Shown here: one piece after another, positions 2,004-15,276 of the stretch | Layout of the letters: each line of letters starts with the position of its first letter | Position numbering within the stretch: position 1 is the stretch's first letter | Assembly (NCBI GenBank): GCA_027490055.1 | Contig: JAIXYV010000089.1 | Location: 1 to 54,641, forward strand | Direction of reading: 5' to 3' | DNA from: Bacteroidota bacterium | GTDB lineage: Bacteria > Bacteroidota > Bacteroidia > NS11-12g > UBA955 | DNA length: 54,641 nucleotides | The notes under the pieces: model-generated | What the model was told of the DNA's origin: nothing | Seen by the model: the letters and a program-made list of their open reading frames with translations, nothing else | Database searches by the model: none | Translations under genes and position numbers: made by a program

Positions 2004-5000
2004 TTATCGGATGATTCTGACGATACCATTTAATCTTGGCTCATCTTCTTCTAAACCTTTATATCTGTAGTTCAGGATATAGTAGTAAGTACCATCTGGG
2101 CAATCAGCACCGGTGTTATTTACTTTACCATTCCAGTCTTTGTTCTTATCGGTAGATGAGAACACTTTCACACCCCATCTGTCGAAGATGGTTAGGTCGT
2201 ATTTCTCTTCACCTTCAATCAGGATATTGAATACCTCGTTACCAATTTTACCTTCAGCATCCGGATCGGTACCAGTTCCGTTTGGTGTGAATACGTTTGG
2301 CGGACGAACAATAGCTTTGAAGTTATTGAACATTCGTTTACAAACTGTATCCTTACAATCATCGGCGTTGGTCGCTTCAAGACATACCCAGTATGCACCA
2401 AGTGAGTCTCTGTAATCGCGGCAAACTGACGGATCATTGAAGTCGCTCTTATTACCATCTTCCAGGAAGATACGTTGATCTTTAGGTGTGATGGTCATGA
2501 TATCTTTAGCATTATAGAAGCTCCATCTGTTCATTGTACTATTTGTAGAAGTATTTTTGAAGCAGAAGATAGGTTTCTTGAATGAGTCGATATCGAAGTC
2601 GGCGGTTACAAATGATACATAGATTTTCACACTATCAGTAGCTGGACAAACTTTATCTCGTGAGTTAACGCTTGTTCTATCGCCGCTGAATTTAACAGTG
2701 TAGGTACCTTTCTTCCAGTACTGAACCACTTGATTAGTATCAGTAGTAGCAAGGGTATCTGTAGCATTCTTACCGAAGTTCCAGATGTAAGAAGGGTATC
2801 TTCCGAAAGGTTTCACTGAACCAACTAATCTTACTGTGTCACCGATACACACTGTATCGTTTCTCAGGAGTTTAGTGGTGTCGTATGCGAATACTTCGAT
2901 CCAGAATTCTTTTTCACCGAAGCTGGTATCAGGGTATTGAACCATACAACTTCTTGTAGAACCATTTACAGTAAACTTGAAGTAGTTATATAAAGTTACT
3001 TTATATCTGCCTGGTTTGCTGTATCTGTTACTCATGGTATCGTTAGATGGCTTGATGGTATCGTATTGGTTACCGAAGTTACCATCTCCGAATTCCCATG
3101 TCCATGAACTTGAATCGCGGGTATTATGAACACTTAGGTTTTTGAAGCTTACTTTATCACCCACACAGTATTGTCTTGGGATTAAAGTATCAAACTCAGG
3201 CTCAGGACCAGGGATGTACAATTCAGTTGAATCCCATCCGATACAACCCAGAGCGGTTTCAACTTTCCAGTAAACTTTGTATTTGCCGTTTCTGGTGTAA
3301 TCGTGAGCTATTTTATTAGGTAGCGTATTGAAGAATGAGTTCACAGAGTTGATACTGTTATCACCCCAGTATACAGTCCACTTAACGATTTGATCGCAAG
3401 GAGAACCTAATTCAGGGATACATGGATCTTGTACGTATGAAGAGTCAATTAAGTCGATGATAGTAGCACAGTTCGGACGGGTTGCAGCCAGTTTAAACTT
3501 AGCACGCAGAGCAGTCACATAAATCTTCTGTGGCAAGGTATCTTTACAACCAAAACTATCTGAAGCAGCAGTTCTGATTAAGTAAGATCTACCGGTATCC
3601 TGGTTGTAGTAGATACTGTTAGTACCACCACCCAGTTGTAGAATCTGACCAGGTTTGTTATCCAGACCTGATACGCTATAAGGGAAACCACCATAGATAG
3701 ACTTAGGATCTGTACCGTCATCTGATTTACTTAAGTCGGTTCTTGTGAAACCTTCTCTGTTAACATTACCAGCTTCAGAGATACGTTGTCTCCAGTAGTC
3801 GATACAATCGAGGAGAGCAGAACCCTGAACAGGGCAATGGGTTGTAACGATATCAGGATATACGTTGAAATATCTGAACTGAGGAGAAGCTTCTACAGTC
3901 TGACCGTGACAAAGGATGGTATCGGTATAGTTCATTACACCATAGAAACCAACGATTACACGTTTTGCAGTACCTGTAGACTTAGTACAATTTTCAGGGG
4001 CACGACTACGCAGACCGAAGTTTGCGATGTAGAAACCAGAGTACTGAGGAACAAAGTTGTAGGCATTATACATTTTACCATCCCAGCCTTTGATTCTCTC
4101 AATAGGTATCAGCGTGGTATCTCTATAGTGCAATGATTGTTTTTCATCCGCTACTTTGTAGAATCTGATGAATCTACCGAAGCCAGTGGTATCCAAACAA
4201 CCTCTGGAACCTGTGAATGGTTTACCGAATGTACCTACACCATTCCAGATAAACTCTGATAACTGAGCAGGAGACAATTCGTAAATATCAATTTTGTTAG
4301 CTTCAAGGATTAATTTGATGATATCAAATACCGGGGTGATATCAGCTTCAGTATGCCATTTTGTAATTTTAGCAATTCTGATGTTCTGACTATCCAGTGT
4401 TTTTGTTTTACCATCAAAGAAACTACGTTTTACAATTTGTAATTTGTCAATCAAATACGGGGTATCTTTATGAACTTGTACGAATCTGCTGTAACGCTCG
4501 TTTGCACTTAATACATAGTATTTATCGTAGTATTTTCCGACGTTAGCACCGGTTAATGACCAGATAGCTTCTTCAACGTCTGGAATATAAGTTCTGTTCC
4601 ATACATTAGTAGTTAAACTAATAGTATCGCGTTTACAGATTTTAGTGTAGTCGGTACCTTCCTGTGGTTTAACGATTCTGAATTTGTTATCCAGAATTGG
4701 GAATCTTGCAAATTTCTCGTAGTAAACTGTATCAACACATTCTGCAGGGTAATCAGCACCTGAAGTAGGCCACATACCGTTACCGATGATCAAACCAACA
4801 TTGATATAACCAGTGGTGGTATCTTTAATATCATCTACAGTAAACTGTTTAGAGAATCTGTTACCTGGGATACCATTGATTTGGTAACCTGGTACTGGCA
4901 CCTGATAAGGCGGATTGATTGGCGGCAAACCACCGGCAGAAATCTGACCTGGTGTTAAGTTAGCACCAACTGCAGGCACCCATCCGGTTTTATTCAGAGC

Positions 5001-7478
5001 TGTATCGAAGTTGATTTCAGCCCATGTTCTTGTACAAGAAGGTTTAGTATCATCTAATACGAAGGTAATACCATAGTTATCCTGGTCGCTACCTAAACAT
5101 AGAGTTCCTAATTTTCTTAATTTTTTAGCACTTGGTGGTTGCAGAGACAACTGAGCAATTGCTTCGTGTTCGCAAGCCAATGGATGACAGATATCTTTAT
5201 GTCTTAATCTTACGTTGTAACATCTAACTGAAGTACCTGCATAGAATTTCTGTCTGTGAGCAGCAGCATTAACGCTATCACCAGCTCTGTAACCTGGCAT
5301 CACATCGCGTTTCCACACTTTATGCCACGGTTGCAGCATATGCTGAGGAATGGTATCCTGTATAAATTGCAGCCACACATTATAATAAGCTCTATCTGTT
5401 TTTGATTTAATAATAATGGCACTTCCCGGCTGAACAGTCAGGTATCGACCACTTGGCAATGTACCTATCCATCTATTAGGAGGCAAACCATTATAAGCAT
5501 CGACAAAAACCGTATCTCCTGGCGCCAGATAGAACTTGGTTGCCACTGTTATATCCAGTTTGGCAATACCGGTGAGTTGTCTCTGAACCTTTATTTTGTT
5601 CTTGATATTATTATAGATCGAAGAGTCTTTGGTTTTGTTAGCTAATGGGTTATCACCATAGAATAAGAAAGTATCTCTGATAATGTAAACTGAATCGTCA
5701 GAATACATATTTCTTTGGTAGCATAAACCAGAGTCTTTGCTGTAGTTTAATACTCTCTCTGGAACCATTGAGAATCTTGTTTGATACATTGAATCCCATG
5801 GGGTATACCAGTGCTGAGGTAAAGTATCTTTACTGTATTTACAGTTTTTACCTACGTTGACACCATTCTTAGTATCAGTGGTACACTTTTCACAGAAGTC
5901 GTCGTCAAAATCCCAAAGTCTTTCAACGCACTCATTACCTCTTTGCTGGTTAGCATTTTTAACTGCATTAGCTGGAGCACCCGCAGCATTAGTAAAGGCG
6001 TGAACAAGTGGCTTGTTGAATCCGCCGTAGATCTTTTCGTGAATTGAAGGATCGAAAGTGGTATTTTTTGGTTGAATTTGTTTGTTAGATTTCAGAATGA
6101 TGGCACTGTCATATATTAAGTTAACAGAGTCGTCATCAGTGAAGTCGTAGTCATTGTGATAGAATTTAGAGAAGTTATAGAAGTGAACAGTATCTTTAAT
6201 AACACACTGGAATCTTTCGAAATCTTCTAAATATCTCATGCCTGAAGCAATAGAACCTTCAATGATCGATTGTGGCCCGATTACCAAAATGGTATCGTAT
6301 ACAGTACGACCGCAACCAGGAATCTGGTGGGTGAAAGAGAAGGTTACCTGATAAGGACCAACGCCACCAAATTTGTGAGTACCTGTCCATTGTCTTGTGA
6401 TATTGGCAGGAATCGGTGGTTGCTCATAAATATATAAAGGGTTAGCCGCCTGAGGAATCGGACCGTCTTTCAGTTTGAAACTGAATGTCGCGTCGTTCAC
6501 ACAAAGTGAATCAAAATCGGCAATAATTTTTGGTTTGATTACTAAGTTTGTTGCAGAAGCACTGAACGTAAAGGTTTCAGTACAACCAAAATTGGTAGTA
6601 ACTGTTAATTTGGTAGTGAAATTACCATTGTTCGGACCCTGAGATTTGAACCAGTGGCAAACACCACCATTCACACCAGCTCTCCAAAGCAAAGGCGTAT
6701 TTTTGTTACCAATGTCTTTTTTGCCATCACCCCAATCCCATGTGAATGTTTTGATACTATCCAATGGAACTGATGAGTTGTTGGTTACACAAAGCTGAAC
6801 ACTGTCACAACGTTTAGGTTGTGGCGAAGAGAAGCTCAGGCCTAATGAAGGCTGAACTACTGCTACTGCATTGGTTCTGGTTTTAGATACGCAACCATTA
6901 CAATCAGTTACCTCTACGGTCATACCATAGGTACCACCCGCAGGATCCTGGAATGAGTGACAGAATGAACGCGGACCGCTACCAGTGAAATCGTATCTGG
7001 CACCATCGTCGAAAACGACAGTTACTTTACAGATAGACCCACCCGCATCGCCGGATTTACTACTGTCAGTAAAGCAGAAACTATTGTTAGAAAAACACTG
7101 GGTTTTGTTAACAATACGCTTTACATTGATAATTGGTTTTGGTTTAACATTGATGGTGGTCTGCGTGTTACAGGTAGACCCGTTTGGTAATCTAAGGGTC
7201 AGTTTAATGACCTTGTTACCAGGGGTGTTAAATGTAAACGTCGGATCACACAATGCTGTGTTTGTACCTTCTCCGTTGAAGTCCCAGTTGAAGTTGGATG
7301 CACCAACAGTGTTACACTTAAATAACACAGGTTCTCCAACACAAGGCACTCCTCCGGTGGTAATGTTACATTGGGCATTTACCGAGCTGTACGTCAGAAA
7401 CGTAGACAGGACAACGGTGAAGACCCTTGCAAAACGGATGATTTTTTGCTTGATATTCATACTTATTTGAGATTGCAT
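2004..7478 (-). CDS. Giant secreted PKD-repeat protein with type B T9SS C-terminal domain
   Basis: A 1,824-residue exported protein, probably moved across the outer membrane by the T9SS and placed on or released from the cell surface. From the chosen ATG (7478) it has an N-terminal signal peptide ending near SSVNAQ. Several PKD-like modules follow, recognisable by WDWGDGKKD, WTWEFGDGNFG and YIWNFGKNA, within a long Cys- and Asp-rich body of unknown fold. The last ~95 residues are a CHU_C/gliding-motility type domain: NVFTPNGTG, FDRWGVKVF, WNGK, CPDGTYYYIL, GIVRIIR. An in-frame TTG at 7505 would add nine residues, and an ATG at 7460 would also leave a good signal peptide. It is the last gene of the sigma-factor operon, so it is probably that sigma factor's main target. 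Its ligand is unknown. Confidence 0.85.
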   Translation of the reverse strand: MQSQISMNIKQKIIRFARVFTVVLSTFLTYSSVNAQCNITTGGVPCVGEPVLFKCNTVGASNFNWDFNGEGTNTALCDPTFTFNTPGNKVIKLTLRLPNGSTCNTQTTINVKPKPIINVKRIVNKTQCFSNNSFCFTDSSKSGDAGGSICKVTVVFDDGARYDFTGSGPRSFCHSFQDPAGGTYGMTVEVTDCNGCVSKTRTNAVAVVQPSLGLSFSSPQPKRCDSVQLCVTNNSSVPLDSIKTFTWDWGDGKKDIGNKNTPLLWRAGVNGGVCHWFKSQGPNNGNFTTKLTVTTNFGCTETFTFSASATNLVIKPKIIADFDSLCVNDATFSFKLKDGPIPQAANPLYIYEQPPIPANITRQWTGTHKFGGVGPYQVTFSFTHQIPGCGRTVYDTILVIGPQSIIEGSIASGMRYLEDFERFQCVIKDTVHFYNFSKFYHNDYDFTDDDSVNLIYDSAIILKSNKQIQPKNTTFDPSIHEKIYGGFNKPLVHAFTNAAGAPANAVKNANQQRGNECVERLWDFDDDFCEKCTTDTKNGVNVGKNCKYSKDTLPQHWYTPWDSMYQTRFSMVPERVLNYSKDSGLCYQRNMYSDDSVYIIRDTFLFYGDNPLANKTKDSSIYNNIKNKIKVQRQLTGIAKLDITVATKFYLAPGDTVFVDAYNGLPPNRWIGTLPSGRYLTVQPGSAIIIKSKTDRAYYNVWLQFIQDTIPQHMLQPWHKVWKRDVMPGYRAGDSVNAAAHRQKFYAGTSVRCYNVRLRHKDICHPLACEHEAIAQLSLQPPSAKKLRKLGTLCLGSDQDNYGITFVLDDTKPSCTRTWAEINFDTALNKTGWVPAVGANLTPGQISAGGLPPINPPYQVPVPGYQINGIPGNRFSKQFTVDDIKDTTTGYINVGLIIGNGMWPTSGADYPAECVDTVYYEKFARFPILDNKFRIVKPQEGTDYTKICKRDTISLTTNVWNRTYIPDVEEAIWSLTGANVGKYYDKYYVLSANERYSRFVQVHKDTPYLIDKLQIVKRSFFDGKTKTLDSQNIRIAKITKWHTEADITPVFDIIKLILEANKIDIYELSPAQLSEFIWNGVGTFGKPFTGSRGCLDTTGFGRFIRFYKVADEKQSLHYRDTTLIPIERIKGWDGKMYNAYNFVPQYSGFYIANFGLRSRAPENCTKSTGTAKRVIVGFYGVMNYTDTILCHGQTVEASPQFRYFNVYPDIVTTHCPVQGSALLDCIDYWRQRISEAGNVNREGFTRTDLSKSDDGTDPKSIYGGFPYSVSGLDNKPGQILQLGGGTNSIYYNQDTGRSYLIRTAASDSFGCKDTLPQKIYVTALRAKFKLAATRPNCATIIDLIDSSYVQDPCIPELGSPCDQIVKWTVYWGDNSINSVNSFFNTLPNKIAHDYTRNGKYKVYWKVETALGCIGWDSTELYIPGPEPEFDTLIPRQYCVGDKVSFKNLSVHNTRDSSSWTWEFGDGNFGNQYDTIKPSNDTMSNRYSKPGRYKVTLYNYFKFTVNGSTRSCMVQYPDTSFGEKEFWIEVFAYDTTKLLRNDTVCIGDTVRLVGSVKPFGRYPSYIWNFGKNATDTLATTDTNQVVQYWKKGTYTVKFSGDRTSVNSRDKVCPATDSVKIYVSFVTADFDIDSFKKPIFCFKNTSTNSTMNRWSFYNAKDIMTITPKDQRIFLEDGNKSDFNDPSVCRDYRDSLGAYWVCLEATNADDCKDTVCKRMFNNFKAIVRPPNVFTPNGTGTDPDAEGKIGNEVFNILIEGEEKYDLTIFDRWGVKVFSSTDKNKDWNGKVNNTGADCPDGTYYYILNYRYKGLEEDEPRLNGIVRIIR

Positions 7479-7508
7479 ATTATATTCTTTTCTTAAATTT
7501 TCCAAATC

Positions 7509-8393
7509 TTATTTAATAATGGTCAATTTCCTTACTGTAGTCTGCTTATTTTTACCTTTAAACTGGTAAATTACTTTTACAAGATAACTGCCTGCCGGAG
7601 CATCGTCACCGTTAGGTAATTTGCAATTCCAGGCCTGGTATTTGTTCTTGGTTCTGAACAAGACTTCATTGTCAATTGAATAGACAATGATCTCAACACT
7701 TTCCTCTCCCACCAGATTAATGATGTAAGTGTCGTTAATGCCGTCACCATCTGGGGTTACCGCGGTTGGAATGAAAATACTTGAACTGTCTTTGAAATAG
7801 GTGTACTCAGTAGTTGGATTCAGTTCCTTAACTTCTTTCTGCTGAGGTGTTTCCGGATTGTCAACTGGCTTTTCTTCCTGAGTTGAACCAGTACTTGGAG
7901 AATGGTCTATCATTGGATTGACCAGGTTGGCATCCATGCTGTAAATTGGATCAGGACCGCTTACAGGTGTTTCAGTAACAGTTTCATCAATTGGTGTTAC
8001 TGGTGGAATGCTGTTGTTATTGTTGTTTTTAGAACGGGGTAATCCAATAGTCAGTTGCTTGTCAACTTCTGATGTTGGATTATTTGTACCTACTATAGCA
8101 GGTGATTGTGTTTCTGTTGATTCTTGTTTTGTGCTGTCTACTTGCTCTGGTTTTACTGGCTCCTCTTTAACTAATTGGTAGGAGATCAACGCAACTGCTG
8201 AAACTGCTACTGCTGCAATTGCGGCTTTCATCCACAGCGCTGTCTTAACGGCAGCCCCGGCAATCGCCGAACCTGAACCTATTGAGGCAGACACGCCTTC
8301 CCAAACACCCGGAGGTACCTGAGCAGTGCCATTTTCAAGGGTTTCCCTGAAAATACCATCAAACAATTCTTCTGTTTCTTTTAAGTTCTTCAC
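7509..8393 (-). CDS. Anti-sigma-like single-pass membrane protein with CHU_C-type C-terminal domain
   Basis: 294 residues with three parts. Residues 1-50 form a short cytoplasmic region containing VPPGVWEGV (26-34), a pattern I associate with Bacteroidota anti-sigma-like proteins. Residues 51-74 are a single hydrophobic segment with no signal peptidase site, giving N-in/C-out topology. Residues 75-204 are a Pro/Thr/Asn/Glu-rich linker, including NNNNN. Residues 205-294 form a CHU_C-like domain: IFIPTAVTPDGDGIND, then APAGSYLVKVIYQF and a KLTIIK end. The usual RWG motif of the domain is absent (YSIDNEVLF instead). It starts with GTG and overlaps the sigma gene by four bases (GTGA), so the two are translationally coupled. 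Inference: it sequesters the sigma factor and senses an envelope signal. The anti-sigma role is not proven by sequence. Confidence 0.7.
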   Translation of the reverse strand: MKNLKETEELFDGIFRETLENGTAQVPPGVWEGVSASIGSGSAIAGAAVKTALWMKAAIAAVAVSAVALISYQLVKEEPVKPEQVDSTKQESTETQSPAIVGTNNPTSEVDKQLTIGLPRSKNNNNNSIPPVTPIDETVTETPVSGPDPIYSMDANLVNPMIDHSPSTGSTQEEKPVDNPETPQQKEVKELNPTTEYTYFKDSSSIFIPTAVTPDGDGINDTYIINLVGEESVEIIVYSIDNEVLFRTKNKYQAWNCKLPNGDDAPAGSYLVKVIYQFKGKNKQTTVRKLTIIK

Positions 8394-8938
8394 TTTAAAT
8401 GTTTTTTTAATACTAACTCCTGTAAATATAATCTGGCCTTGTGTAACTGACTCTTACTGGTATTTTCTGAGATATTGAGCATTTGGGCAATTTCTTCATG
8501 ATGGAAACCCTCGATGGCAAAAAGGTTAAAAACTGTTTTGTATCCTTTGGGCATTCCATTAATCAGTTTCATGAGGTCGGCAGCTTTCAATTCTGAAAGT
8601 GTATGACTGTCAATGGCTTGCTCGGCAACATCATCGATGCTGTCAACCATGCTTTCTCGCTGACTTTTCCTGTAAAATTCAATGCTGGTATTGATAAAGA
8701 TCCGCTTAACCCATCCTTCAAAAGACCCTTTGTGCTCAAATCGTTCTAAATGATTAAACACTTTTATGAATCCTTCCTGAAGAATGTCTTTGGCTTCATC
8801 GGTATCCTGAGCATATCTCAGACAGACCGCATACATTTTAGGAGATAATAAGTCAAATAACTCTTTCTGTGCTTTAGGCTTTTTTTCTATACATTGAGCT
8901 AAAATCGCGTTTAGTTTATCTGTATGATTTTCTGCCAT
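8390..8938 (-). CDS. ECF-type RNA polymerase sigma factor
   Basis: An alternative sigma factor of 182 residues, the usual ECF size. Region 2 lies at about 23-93 (ELFDLLSPKMYAVCLRYA, DEAKDILQEGFIKVF, GSFEGWVKRIFINTSIEFYR). Region 4 lies at about 120-175 (MPKGYKTVFNLFAIEGFHHE, EIAQMLNISENTSKSQLHKA, a helix-turn-helix). It is the first gene of a three-gene operon with the anti-sigma-like protein and the giant PKD protein, which suggests the sigma factor drives its own operon. Upstream, the sequence before the ATG has no TAnnTTTG element, consistent with a self-recognised promoter of another type. The start is an ATG at 8938. Confidence 0.93.
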   Translation of the reverse strand: MAENHTDKLNAILAQCIEKKPKAQKELFDLLSPKMYAVCLRYAQDTDEAKDILQEGFIKVFNHLERFEHKGSFEGWVKRIFINTSIEFYRKSQRESMVDSIDDVAEQAIDSHTLSELKAADLMKLINGMPKGYKTVFNLFAIEGFHHEEIAQMLNISENTSKSQLHKARLYLQELVLKKHLK

Positions 8939-9015
8939 TTACACTTTTTGTAGTATCTGTTACTTATTGGTAGAAGAAATTTCTTAATGAAAGGTTGCCT
9001 GAACTATAAAAAAAA

Positions 9016-9483
9016 TTATTCTTCTGGCTTCAAGCGTTCGATCTGGTATCTGTCCTCAAGGGCTTTGAATGTGCTTTCAGAATAATAGCCAACGCTTTCA
9101 ATGGCTTCAACAATCTCTTCCTGAGTCAGACCTTTGGCTGGTCTTCTGTGCCTCACAGCCAGCATGTTCTGCTCGCGGTTAATCGTGTAAGACGTGTACA
9201 ACATATTAAGGTTATTATGCAATAACTCTTCATAGAAAGTTTCAAGATTGCTCCCCGGCATCAAACAAACCGGCGAAATGGTTTGGAAGGCAAAAACAGG
9301 CTCATCCGTTTCAAAATACAACCAGGAATTGTCTTTATCCAATTCCCATAAATCTACATAAATCTCAGTATCACCATTGTAAATCACCCACTGACCGTTC
9401 TCGGCACCTCTGGTTTCCAGTGGATTCAAGCCTAAAAAAGCAAAGGTAGATTCAATTAATTCTGAATAAGATTCGAAGTTCAT
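9016..9483 (-). CDS. YbjN-like protein
   Basis: 155 residues, cytoplasmic, with no signal peptide or membrane segment. The pattern of an amphipathic N-terminal helix (MNFESYSELIESTFAFLGL), a beta sheet (GQWVIYNGDTEIYVDLWE, SWLYFETDEPVFAF), a helix (LETFYEELLHNNLNMLY) and a final strand-helix with LTQEEIVEAIESVGYYS fits the YbjN/type III secretion chaperone-like fold. Members of this fold bind peptides or act as regulators; the molecular function here is unknown. It is divergent from sucD, and both genes have a recognisable -7 element in the 92-base gap. Confidence is good for the fold and low for the role. Confidence 0.65.
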   Translation of the reverse strand: MNFESYSELIESTFAFLGLNPLETRGAENGQWVIYNGDTEIYVDLWELDKDNSWLYFETDEPVFAFQTISPVCLMPGSNLETFYEELLHNNLNMLYTSYTINREQNMLAVRHRRPAKGLTQEEIVEAIESVGYYSESTFKALEDRYQIERLKPEE

Positions 9484-13134: not shown

Positions 13135-15276
13135 TTAACGAATCAGTAAAATCTGTCCTGATGCGTTGTTTTTCTTGATATACGGACCGTTAGGTGTGGT
13201 ATAGTTAAGCTTCCACAAATACAGTCCTTCTGGAACATACTCACCTTTATAGGTACCATCCCAGCCATCGCTATCCTGAAGCATATCTTTATCTGATTCA
13301 TAAATCAGTTCGCCCCAACGGTTATAGATCTGGAATAAAGTGATAGTAATGTTTCTGCCTCTTGGACGGAAATAGTTATTGACTAAGTCGTTACCCGGAC
13401 TGAAGGAATTGGCCATAAACAAATCACAGTAATCGGTTTGTAAAAACAAGAACACTGAATCTGTTGTAACACCGCATGGGTTAGTTACTCTTACCTGATA
13501 TTTTCCGCCCTGGAAGGCGTAAATCATACTGTCTGTGCTGCCTGTATTCCATAAATAGGTAGATTTTGGATAGGCTGCATTCAGAAATATACCCCCACCT
13601 TTACATAGTACTGTATCAGAACCAATATTGATTTTAGGCGCAGATGCGAAAACAATATTGATGGTATCTCTACCAGAACATTTGCCATCTGTAGCAATAA
13701 CATCGTATGTACCTCCCTGAGTAATGGTTATGGTTTTGGTAGTCTGACCAGTGCTCCAGAAATAACTCTGAGAATTAACGTTGGCATCTAGCTGATATGA
13801 AAACACTGAACAAACTGGTGTATCCCTTCCGATAAATGGTGCTGGTGTTGTGTAGATATTAAATGGAATAACTGTCGTATCCTCACAATACTTATCCCTG
13901 ATAACATGCGTTAACTGGTAAGTTCCCGGGGCGCCGTCTGGCACTAAAATCTGAGTAGAGCTAACAGGATACCCTGTAAAAGTTCCACCAGGCGAGTTCG
14001 GCGTCAATTTCACTTGTTGATTGCTTTGGCAATAGAAGGAATCTAAACCAGAGAATTTACTGTCCAGATCTGGTAAAACAGTGATATCTACCGTATCTCT
14101 TCCTTTACATCCTGTATTGGCAAATGCCACGTGCATCACACGATAGTTGCCGACATTCTTGTAAACATGTGAGACATTTTGATTGGAACTTGAATCGTTA
14201 TCGCCAAAATACCATCTGAAATAACTTAGAGTATTATCAGGATTCTTAAAATCGAATTTGTTATTCGTAATACATTGGAAGGTATCGTTAAGTTCTAAAC
14301 TCCCTACGGGACTTGGCAATACTGTTAGTGGGAAAGTTATGGTATCTTTACAAGCAGTTGGTTGACTGTTGGAAGTACTGCTCAATTCTAACATAACATT
14401 AAATGTTCCAGACACCTTGTAGCGCTTCTTCATTCTGGCAAAGGAGCTTTCTGCCCCATCACCAAACTTCCAATGATAGATTACCCCAATTGGAAATGGA
14501 TTTAACAAACCAGTTGCAGCAATTTCAAAGTAATTATCTTCAAGACATTGCGTGTCATTGAACGTTTTAAAATCGATAAAGGCTACTTTTCTTGGAAATA
14601 CTTTAACTGTTCGTTTGAAAGTATTTGGACAACCTGTCAAACTTGTCTGTGGAATAATTCGTATATCTTTATAACCGCCATTACCCGTGAAACGATGTGT
14701 TACAGGAGAACTTGTAGAAGTACCATCTCCAAAATCAAACATATAGGTCAAACCCGGTATGCTTGAAGTAGAAGTATTGGTAAACTCGAAACTATTGGTC
14801 ACCTGGCAAGAATCGTTGATTTTAATTGTGAAATCTAAAGAAATATTATAAGTGGTAAAAGAAACTTCTACCGGAGGATTTGAAATCAGGTATTGAGTTG
14901 AACTGCCACTGTTATCATGCTCGTAAATATGAAAATAATATATCTGACCAGGTTGCAGAGCTGTCACCTGAACAAAATTAGTTCCACCGGCATTGTAGAC
15001 AATAAAGTTATCATTGGCCGCTCCAAGTGGTGTACCTGAACCAAAAACAGTATTTGCGTTGTAAACGGTATTATCTGAGGGAACAAAATCCGGAGCCGAC
15101 CCTTTGCGACCAACTATTAGTCTTGCAGCGCCATTTCCAGAAACCCAATTAAGAAATACTGCATTACACTGAAGGCTATTATAGGTTAACCCAGATGCTT
15201 GCACAGTTGGTCTGGCTGCATATCCGGCATACACAAATAGTAACATTAATCCCGTAAGTAAACCTAGTTTTTTCAA
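13135..15276 (-). CDS. Secreted PKD-domain protein with type B T9SS C-terminal domain
   Basis: A 713-residue exported protein. It starts with a TTG (MKKLGLLTGLMLLFVYAGYA, a clear signal peptide); the only nearby ATG is at residue 11 and would remove the basic N-region. A fibronectin-like first domain (about 25-145) is followed by PKD modules marked by MFDFGDGTS, YHWKFGDGAES and RWYFGDNDS. Two cysteine-framed repeats follow, SYFWSTGQTTKTIT and TYLWNTGSTDSMIY. The C-terminal CHU_C domain has ANSFSPGNDLVN, IYNRWGELIYES, GWDGTYKG and PEGLYLWKL. It is probably a T9SS-exported surface protein or adhesin of unknown ligand. The TAAATTTG -7 element is eight bases before the TTG. Confidence 0.85.
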   Translation of the reverse strand: MKKLGLLTGLMLLFVYAGYAARPTVQASGLTYNSLQCNAVFLNWVSGNGAARLIVGRKGSAPDFVPSDNTVYNANTVFGSGTPLGAANDNFIVYNAGGTNFVQVTALQPGQIYYFHIYEHDNSGSSTQYLISNPPVEVSFTTYNISLDFTIKINDSCQVTNSFEFTNTSTSSIPGLTYMFDFGDGTSTSSPVTHRFTGNGGYKDIRIIPQTSLTGCPNTFKRTVKVFPRKVAFIDFKTFNDTQCLEDNYFEIAATGLLNPFPIGVIYHWKFGDGAESSFARMKKRYKVSGTFNVMLELSSTSNSQPTACKDTITFPLTVLPSPVGSLELNDTFQCITNNKFDFKNPDNTLSYFRWYFGDNDSSSNQNVSHVYKNVGNYRVMHVAFANTGCKGRDTVDITVLPDLDSKFSGLDSFYCQSNQQVKLTPNSPGGTFTGYPVSSTQILVPDGAPGTYQLTHVIRDKYCEDTTVIPFNIYTTPAPFIGRDTPVCSVFSYQLDANVNSQSYFWSTGQTTKTITITQGGTYDVIATDGKCSGRDTINIVFASAPKINIGSDTVLCKGGGIFLNAAYPKSTYLWNTGSTDSMIYAFQGGKYQVRVTNPCGVTTDSVFLFLQTDYCDLFMANSFSPGNDLVNNYFRPRGRNITITLFQIYNRWGELIYESDKDMLQDSDGWDGTYKGEYVPEGLYLWKLNYTTPNGPYIKKNNASGQILLIR

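Follow-up and report, generated by a model that had tools for sequence, protein, structure and literature searches.

A recurrent ECF sigma factor operon of Bacteroidia encoding a putative transmembrane anti-sigma factor with a CHU_C ectodomain

How cells match the making of type IX secretion system (T9SS) cargo to their capacity for exporting it is, to our knowledge, an open question, and it is raised by an operon on the 54,641-nt contig JAIXYV010000089.1 of a Bacteroidota bacterium (hereafter the window, meaning the whole stretch of DNA that was analysed). Three tightly packed genes encode, in order, an ECF sigma factor, a membrane protein and a giant secreted protein, and the latter two both end in a CHU_C domain, a sorting domain of T9SS cargo. 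What would such a domain be doing on a protein fixed in the membrane beside a sigma factor? The original prediction for this locus held that it could compete with cargo for the export machinery, or sense backed-up cargo, and release the sigma factor in response.

The operon and its distribution

The features of the operon, all on the minus strand, are as follows.

8971..8999 (-): ECF-type promoter GGCAACC-N16-CTTCTA, 59 nt (from CAACC) upstream of the sigma ATG
8390..8938 (-): ECF sigma factor gene, 182 aa, with Sigma70_r2 and Sigma70_r4_2 above cut-off
7509..8393 (-): gene for the membrane anti-sigma-like protein (the middle gene), 294 aa, with a GTG start and a GTGA overlap with the sigma gene
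8244..8393 (-): cytosolic part of the middle protein, residues 1-50, with a motif around FD..FK..L and PP.GVWE and two predicted helices
8169..8240 (-): single transmembrane helix of the middle protein, residues 52-75, with K56
7545..7775 (-): periplasmic CHU_C domain of the middle protein, lacking RWG, residues 207-283 (PF13585, 32.8 bits)
2004..7478 (-): giant secreted PKD protein, 1,824 aa from the ATG at 7478
2061..2303 (-): CHU_C (type B) sorting domain of the giant, RWG present (PF13585, 56.5 bits)

Gene order, overlap and close packing are as first described. The sigma factor is matched by Pfam in both region 2 (57.1 bits) and region 4 (53.6 bits), and by the NCBIfam ECF superfamily model TIGR02937 (92.7 bits against a cut-off of 42.9). 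The CHU_C match of the middle protein (E 7.9e-8) exceeds the Pfam cut-off of 27 bits, in agreement with the earlier description of a short cytosolic part, one hydrophobic segment at about residues 52-75 and a CHU_C domain without RWG. In the window, neither the middle protein (24.9) nor the giant (score 32.1) reaches the cut-off of 35 set for the NCBIfam type B sorting model TIGR04131, which both distant middle-protein homologs tested do pass (46.4 and 35.8). The open frame of the giant spans 2004-7505 (-) and would yield 1833 aa from a TTG start 3 nt past the middle gene; the ATG at 7478, 30 nt past that gene, gives a signal-peptide-like N-terminus and the secreted protein of the length originally given, in which PKD_4 is matched in five stretches.

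The original prediction proposed looking for such triads in other Bacteroidota, and they do occur there. The middle protein was matched in all 59 relatives searched (E 1e-5), many via CHU_C alone, and in 40 stretches from 40 of these relatives, picked because they contained matches, a sigma gene always adjoins the middle-type CHU_C gene in the same order as in the window. Giants are complete in 36 of these stretches (1,589-2,089 aa), cut by a contig end in three (L041, L045 and L054) and split into two frames in one (L044). In a sample of 197 genomes of the class, the giant was matched in at least 26 (E 1e-20). Twenty regions were taken from these matches; 17 held long giants outside the order, and in every one of the 17 the sigma and middle genes are the next genes upstream. 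The other three regions, without a sigma gene, held two shorter paralogs and one paralog in the window's own genome. A further scan found 98 relatives, from which 80 loci were kept, nearly all of them in metagenome-assembled genomes by title.

Altogether, at least 83 distinct triads were recognised by script, with one more (L194, where the giant shares 124 nt with the middle gene) recognised by eye, and they fall in at least eight family-level groups; regions were chosen from sampled match lists, so that all such frequencies are lower bounds. The giants of the triads range from 1,484 to 2,336 aa, and in an alignment of 21 giants to that of the window, identity to it is 29-80%. Among 104 distinct giant frames scored, those that lacked one or both partners by script number 21 and comprise the L194 triad, L044, nine whose upstream sequence is missing or shorter than 1,000 nt, and ten second copies from assemblies where a triad is present as well (L087, L089, L094, L095, L097, L117, L138, L195, L196 and L197). 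A sigma gene was read directly beside the middle gene in at least 32 of the 197 class genomes (five in the order, 17 + 10 outside it). The triad is thus real and widespread in the class Bacteroidia, and no local accident.

The last ten of these genomes hold pairs rather than triads. The middle-protein profile matches at least 191 of the 197 class genomes, mostly via CHU_C, and 20 regions with middle-size frames were taken from the match list. In ten of these (L228-L236 and L243), representing six further family-level groups, a sigma gene stands beside a TM/CHU_C gene with no giant behind it, and in two of the ten a smaller CHU_C protein is encoded just downstream. The other ten regions encode CHU_C proteins with signal-peptide-like N-termini, none with a sigma gene of this type. 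Since the giant is absent from ten pairs, whatever is sensed cannot concern the giant everywhere.

Anatomy of the middle protein

Together, the triads and pairs give 93 distinct loci, with the window counted once. In the cytosolic 45-50 residues of the middle protein, D12 is found in 70 of the 93, P27 in 80 and W31 in 73 (F in 14). There is one hydrophobic segment in 89, with K56 in 88, and positive charge is greater before than after the segment in 77. Judged by hydrophobicity and motif, the middle protein has no N-terminal signal peptide, and its segment 52-75 lies behind the conserved cytosolic motif. At E 1e-3, the 93 members between them match eight Pfam families, which include neither known anti-sigma domains (such as the RseA or zinc-finger types) nor the FecR domain. 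CnrY and RsiW are membrane-bound regulators, and the anatomy of the class II (CnrY-type) anti-sigma factors is found here: a short cytosolic part with two predicted helices, one transmembrane segment and a gene adjoining that of the sigma factor.

Structure prediction points the same way. Modelled alone, the middle protein of the window has helices at residues 5-20 and 30-38 and a transmembrane helix at 52-75, with pLDDT 65-76 over residues 1-40. The sigma factor and the anti-sigma N-terminus were also modelled jointly, as one chain joined by natural read-through in a homologous giant-less pair (L228), where the corresponding helices (203-220 and 228-243) reach pLDDT 94-96 over 211-240 with a pTM of 0.79, the alignment of the joint model being of different depth (123 rows versus 36 for the window protein alone). 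In this model, the sigma factor is closed and resembles that of the SigW-RsiW complex (Z 14.1 over 155 of 155 residues, rmsd 4.4) and of CnrH-CnrY (Z 12.0 over 150 residues, rmsd 5.2), where the closed sigma factor is described as clasped by the two helices of CnrY (PMC4598750); against several polymerase-bound sigma factors with both domains aligned, the rmsd is 21-28. A SigG1 structure whose entry names no anti-sigma factor is closed too (Z 12.4, rmsd 4.1), and the closed model should therefore not be read too firmly. By the confidence of the homolog model, prediction supports the earlier suggestion that residues 1-50 associate with the sigma factor.

The periplasmic end is a CHU_C domain in all 93 middle proteins (E 1e-3), and it differs from a working signal in a regular manner. 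Triad alignments were read over 84 rows, which are the 83 distinct triads with the window entered twice (W and L158). The motif R[WYF]G is present in 80 of the 84 rows for giants and in 16 of 20 ordinary CHU_C domains (six from the window's own genome and 14 from L228-L247), versus two of 84 for the triad partners and none of ten for the giant-less partners. In the window, the giant has RWG and the middle protein has IDN at that position. Singly, the R is kept in 13 of 84 partners and the G in 30. Other residues of the domain have been retained by the triad partners almost throughout (T or S213, D217 and W255 in 84/84; N220 and Y270 in 82/84). A late glycine, position 1827 of the giant, is kept in only 23 of 84 triad partners and in nine of ten giant-less partners.

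In Flavobacterium johnsoniae, the type B signal of SprB is described as having five conserved motifs, none of them dispensable for export, and type B cargo as dependent on PorP/SprF shuttles (PMC12618676). In our reading, RWG is one of the five SprB motifs, and the CHU_C domain of the middle proteins is probably a systematically altered, export-incompetent secretion signal. With the loop motifs kept and RWG lost, docking without export would be a probable outcome. PKD domains are also matched in 20 of the 93 middle proteins, some of which therefore look like the tail end of a cargo protein set on a membrane anchor.

The fold itself says less about ancestry. The CHU_C domain of the window's middle protein (residues 201-294) is predicted with pLDDT 92-98, and its structural matches include the T9SS C-terminal domains of NucA (Z 8.4, rmsd 2.1) and PorZ (Z 8.7). 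Other Ig-like folds match the model at equal or higher Z, so that the fold alone is no proof of T9SS descent. In a sequence search against solved structures, the middle protein of the window had no match and its profile gave weak ones only, the best being FlgD (1.9e-4).

Two kinds of direct pairing between the CHU_C domains of a locus were considered and rejected. Own-pair identity (0.301) is not above identity to other giants (0.297) and gives no sequence sign of a matched pair. A disulfide link was likewise set aside; a cysteine at position 1802 is common in both proteins, and its occurrence in the two is uncorrelated.

The promoter and its targets

Upstream of the sigma gene, the pattern CAACY-N16-C[AGT]TC occurs in 73 of the 93 distinct loci, compared with 0.26% of shuffled upstream sequences. 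No other spacer from 10 to 23 occurs in more than four loci. Allowing a looser -10 element raises the count to 81 of 93, leaving 12 of the 20 loci that lack the strict pattern. The consensus is an ECF-type promoter, GCAACC-N16-CATCTA. A matrix was built from 85 sites and scored on 250 control upstream sequences (99th percentile 10.8, maximum 15.6). In the window there is one match, where 0.06 would be expected, and it scores 28.4; one locus (L058) matches the relaxed promoter expression only, with a matrix score of -12.8.

The position of further sites bears on how the giant is read. Where the gap between the middle gene and the giant is at least 100 nt, a promoter site was found before the giant in six of six loci (L064, L067, L114, L178, L180 and L181; scores 10.7-21.3), while the matrix scan found none in nine loci with gaps of 60-89 nt. 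The giant would therefore probably be read from the sigma promoter when close to it and from a promoter of its own when distant. Judged by these promoter positions, both the giant and the sigma operon itself are very likely under the control of the sigma factor.

For twelve giant frames that lack partners, the scores vary from those of strong sites (23.7 in L087; 14.2 in the window's own genome) down to no site at all (-4.1 in L097). Both the own-genome paralog and that of L087 end in a type A signal (Por_Secre_tail). In the window's genome, where the site before the paralog is weaker than that of the sigma operon, the sigma factor may possibly also transcribe this type A giant.

Beyond these genes, the regulon looks small as far as promoter patterns indicate. 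The triad promoter recurs in 14 of 16 genomes of the same genus, and one promoter-matching string recurs in four of them. Of 30 loci from the same-genus scan, 14 are intergenic, namely 11 before a triad sigma gene plus L267, L268 and L273, the last scoring 26.6 before a 328-aa frame. A broad regulon was considered and rejected, the strict pattern giving 71 matches in the 16 genomes versus 47 in a reversed control. With the looser pattern, the window's own genome shows no excess (39 matches versus 61 in the control); among 30 loose matches examined there, three are intergenic, before the sigma operon (28.4), before the giant paralog (14.2) and at one further place (9.3). Another own-genome site (18.3) is located within the last part of a phosphatase-like gene, and a gene for a thioredoxin-like protein follows 54 nt further on. 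The stricter pattern adds one more match and an intergenic site of 15.2 (L267) with no 120-aa frame within 250 nt. In ten wider genomes, the strict pattern matched 12 times versus three in the control, and seven of the 12 matches are at triads.

Candidate circuits and known systems

The best reading of the unnamed middle-protein family is that of a kind of transmembrane anti-sigma factor, in which the new part is CHU_C as the ectodomain. For the circuit as a whole, a secretion-coupled sigma/anti-sigma switch is the best reading, and one that we consider somewhat favoured. The ECF sigma factor would be held at the inner membrane by the two N-terminal helices of its partner, in a predicted wrap-around like that of CnrY. 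The partner would cross the membrane once and present to the periplasm a CHU_C domain with type B loop motifs but without RWG, which could dock on the CHU_C-recognising parts of the machinery (a PorP/SprF-type shuttle or the translocon) without being exported. With a receptor free, docking, or proteolysis triggered by it, would release the sigma factor, which in turn would transcribe both the giant and the operon that encodes it, using GCAACC-N16-CATCTA promoters. Giant cargo arriving with a full CHU_C domain could then displace the anti-sigma factor and turn the sigma factor off. In such a circuit, synthesis of one giant surface protein would be kept in step with export capacity. Both the sensing of the type IX system by CHU_C and the sign of the response are what we infer. 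In the window's genome, SprA is matched once, CHU_C 35 times above cut-off and PorP/SprF only twice, both times on contigs other than the window's, so that receptors may be scarce if the PorP/SprF family model is complete.

Extending this switch to the whole class is a step that we regard as possible rather than probable. There, the middle proteins would form a class-wide anti-sigma family, in which a crippled type B signal serves as bait to read free type IX export capacity and the sigma factor makes the giant, and perhaps a type A paralog, only if it is exportable. In effect, this would be a checkpoint of the FlgM kind that arose independently around the type IX system.

Signalling from the cell surface in the style of FecA-FecR-FecI would use the same parts differently, with the giant at the surface detecting an outside cue and signalling to the anti-sigma CHU_C domain to free the sigma factor. 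The gene order of sigma factor, membrane regulator and outer partner suits this arrangement, as do the sigma-type promoter before the giant and the topology of FecR, whose periplasmic part is described as binding the FecA signalling domain (PMC9249621). Y1813, chosen post hoc, is also found in 81 of 84 rows for giants and in 72 for triad partners, but is rare in giant-less partners (three of ten) and ordinary CHU_C domains (three of 20). An exported giant, however, would have its CHU_C domain outside the outer membrane, such that contact in the periplasm needs a further link; moreover, no FecR model appears in the set of families that the 93 partners match, and ten pairs do without a giant altogether. 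We consider signalling of this kind unlikely.

That the CHU_C domain is simply a stable beta-sandwich, used for spacing, for sensing a ligand or as a protease cap, and is unconnected with type IX secretion, seems quite improbable. Its Ig-like fold is a common one with many unrelated matches and its RWG is lost, but the type B loop residues have been kept almost without exception in the 93 partners, and the gene that follows the partner encodes a CHU_C giant in 83 triads and a smaller CHU_C protein in two of the ten giant-less pairs.

Least probable is a secretion-stress response in which backed-up periplasmic cargo binds the anti-sigma CHU_C domain and releases the sigma factor, for although location and domain would fit, and ECF sigma factors control T9SS genes in Porphyromonas gingivalis (PMC7712824) and, by promoter motif, in Flavobacterium psychrophilum (PMC9723704), the clear targets here are cargo genes and the sigma operon, whose transcription would aggravate the block. 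The regulon may also include T9SS genes. Release by backed-up cargo was the half of the original prediction that fared poorly; its real CHU_C domain, anti-sigma anatomy, recurrent triad and probably export-incompetent signal have all held up. Since the sigma factor would make cargo, release by backed-up cargo would be self-worsening, whereas release by a free receptor, ended by cargo, would be self-limiting. Docking of the anti-sigma factor on a free export receptor, ended by cargo, thus appears to fit better, its sign being the one proposed above for the secretion-coupled switch.

Several known systems share parts of this arrangement. In P. gingivalis, PorA acts with PorXY and SigP, so that, as may be the case here, an ECF sigma factor is under the influence of a protein that carries a T9SS C-terminal domain; PorA is described as the first such protein in the regulation of T9SS component genes (PMC7712824). 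According to that account, PorA is on the cell surface, is proposed to act via the PorY kinase and PorX, and targets T9SS component genes, whereas here a type B domain in the inner membrane is carried by the sigma factor's own putative anti-sigma factor and a cargo gene is the very likely target. For CnrY-CnrH and RsiW-SigW, cytosolic helices are described that hold sigma2 and sigma4 closed, an arrangement that the joint model may share, but their sensing parts are a metal sensor (CnrX) or a protease-controlled ectodomain rather than CHU_C (PMC4598750, PMC7406223), and the middle protein matches no known anti-sigma profile. The logic of FlgM-FliA would also be shared, with an anti-sigma factor tied to the state of an export machine and a sigma factor that makes the late cargo of that machine; FlgM, however, is itself exported by the type III apparatus, while the putative anti-sigma factor here is membrane-bound with an altered type IX signal (PMC4526659). 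Lastly, FecR-FecI and PupR-PupI combine a sigma factor, a one-TM regulator and an outer partner that is read by the regulator's periplasmic part (PMC9249621); here, a T9SS cargo takes the place of the iron-carrier receptor and no FecR domain is matched.

As described in these sources, none of PorA-PorXY-SigP, CnrY, FlgM and FecR has this build. The original prediction knew of no characterised case of an anti-sigma/CHU_C fusion, and searches of the open-access PMC literature, which are not proof of absence, also found none. The making of cargo may be coupled to its export in a hitherto undescribed manner, and the operon offers a direct link, open to testing, from the activity of the sigma factor to type IX export. 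The middle proteins also carry natural variants of the type B signal, which may separate residues for docking from residues for export.

Sigma control of the type IX system may itself be wider, as is hinted by the SM6 promoters described in F. psychrophilum, which have an ECF-type CGT box and drive T9SS genes together with a sigma/anti-sigma pair (PMC9723704). Of the ECF sigma factors from Bacteroidetes, only 6% are reported to have a recognised class I anti-sigma neighbour, compared with 32% over all phyla (PMC7406223). The present family offers an anti-sigma type that is missed by the Pfam anti-sigma profiles, along with a clear target promoter.

A paralog of the giant cargo and other candidate sigma targets

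The genome that carries the window also encodes a paralog of the giant PKD/CHU_C cargo protein:

L197:5700-10046 (G000:C13), + strand, giant paralog

Identity to the giant is 46-57% over the matched stretches, and the sorting signal is type A, not CHU_C. A sigma-type site, that is, a match to the motif of the sigma gene's own promoter, lies 51 nt 5′ of the paralog (score 14.2). The two genes represent one body with two export tags, possibly in a single regulon. Strong sigma-type sites at three further loci mark possible additional targets of the sigma factor:

L319 (G131:C14), score 24.3, precedes the gene of a 387-aa membrane protein
L273 (G014:C48), score 26.6, precedes a 328-aa frame
L294 (G000:C60), score 18.3, precedes the gene of a thioredoxin-like protein

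Genes adjoining the sigma locus

On its upstream side, the sigma promoter is adjoined by another gene:

9016-9483, - strand, YbjN-like protein (23.8 bits against a cut-off of 22; also a weak CesT_Tir match)

A homolog occurs in 30 of the 40 relatives' stretches, but in only one of the 17 from outside the order. At another locus, L229, the sigma/TM-CHU_C pair is followed immediately by a second pair, whose one-TM protein is without CHU_C:

L229:3742-5069, + strand, second sigma-like gene and gene of a 249-aa one-TM protein

Type IX cargo and shuttles

Besides the giant, the window encodes further type IX cargo:

13135-15276, - strand, PKD/CHU_C cargo, 713 aa
33233-38371, - strand, large phosphatase-like type A cargo, 1,712-aa frame (domains: phytase-like, PhoX, Por_Secre_tail)

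Across many contigs of this genome, 35 CHU_C matches above cut-off stand against two to PorP/SprF, the shuttles that type B cargo needs in F. johnsoniae; either the shuttles are shared or some were missed by the family model.
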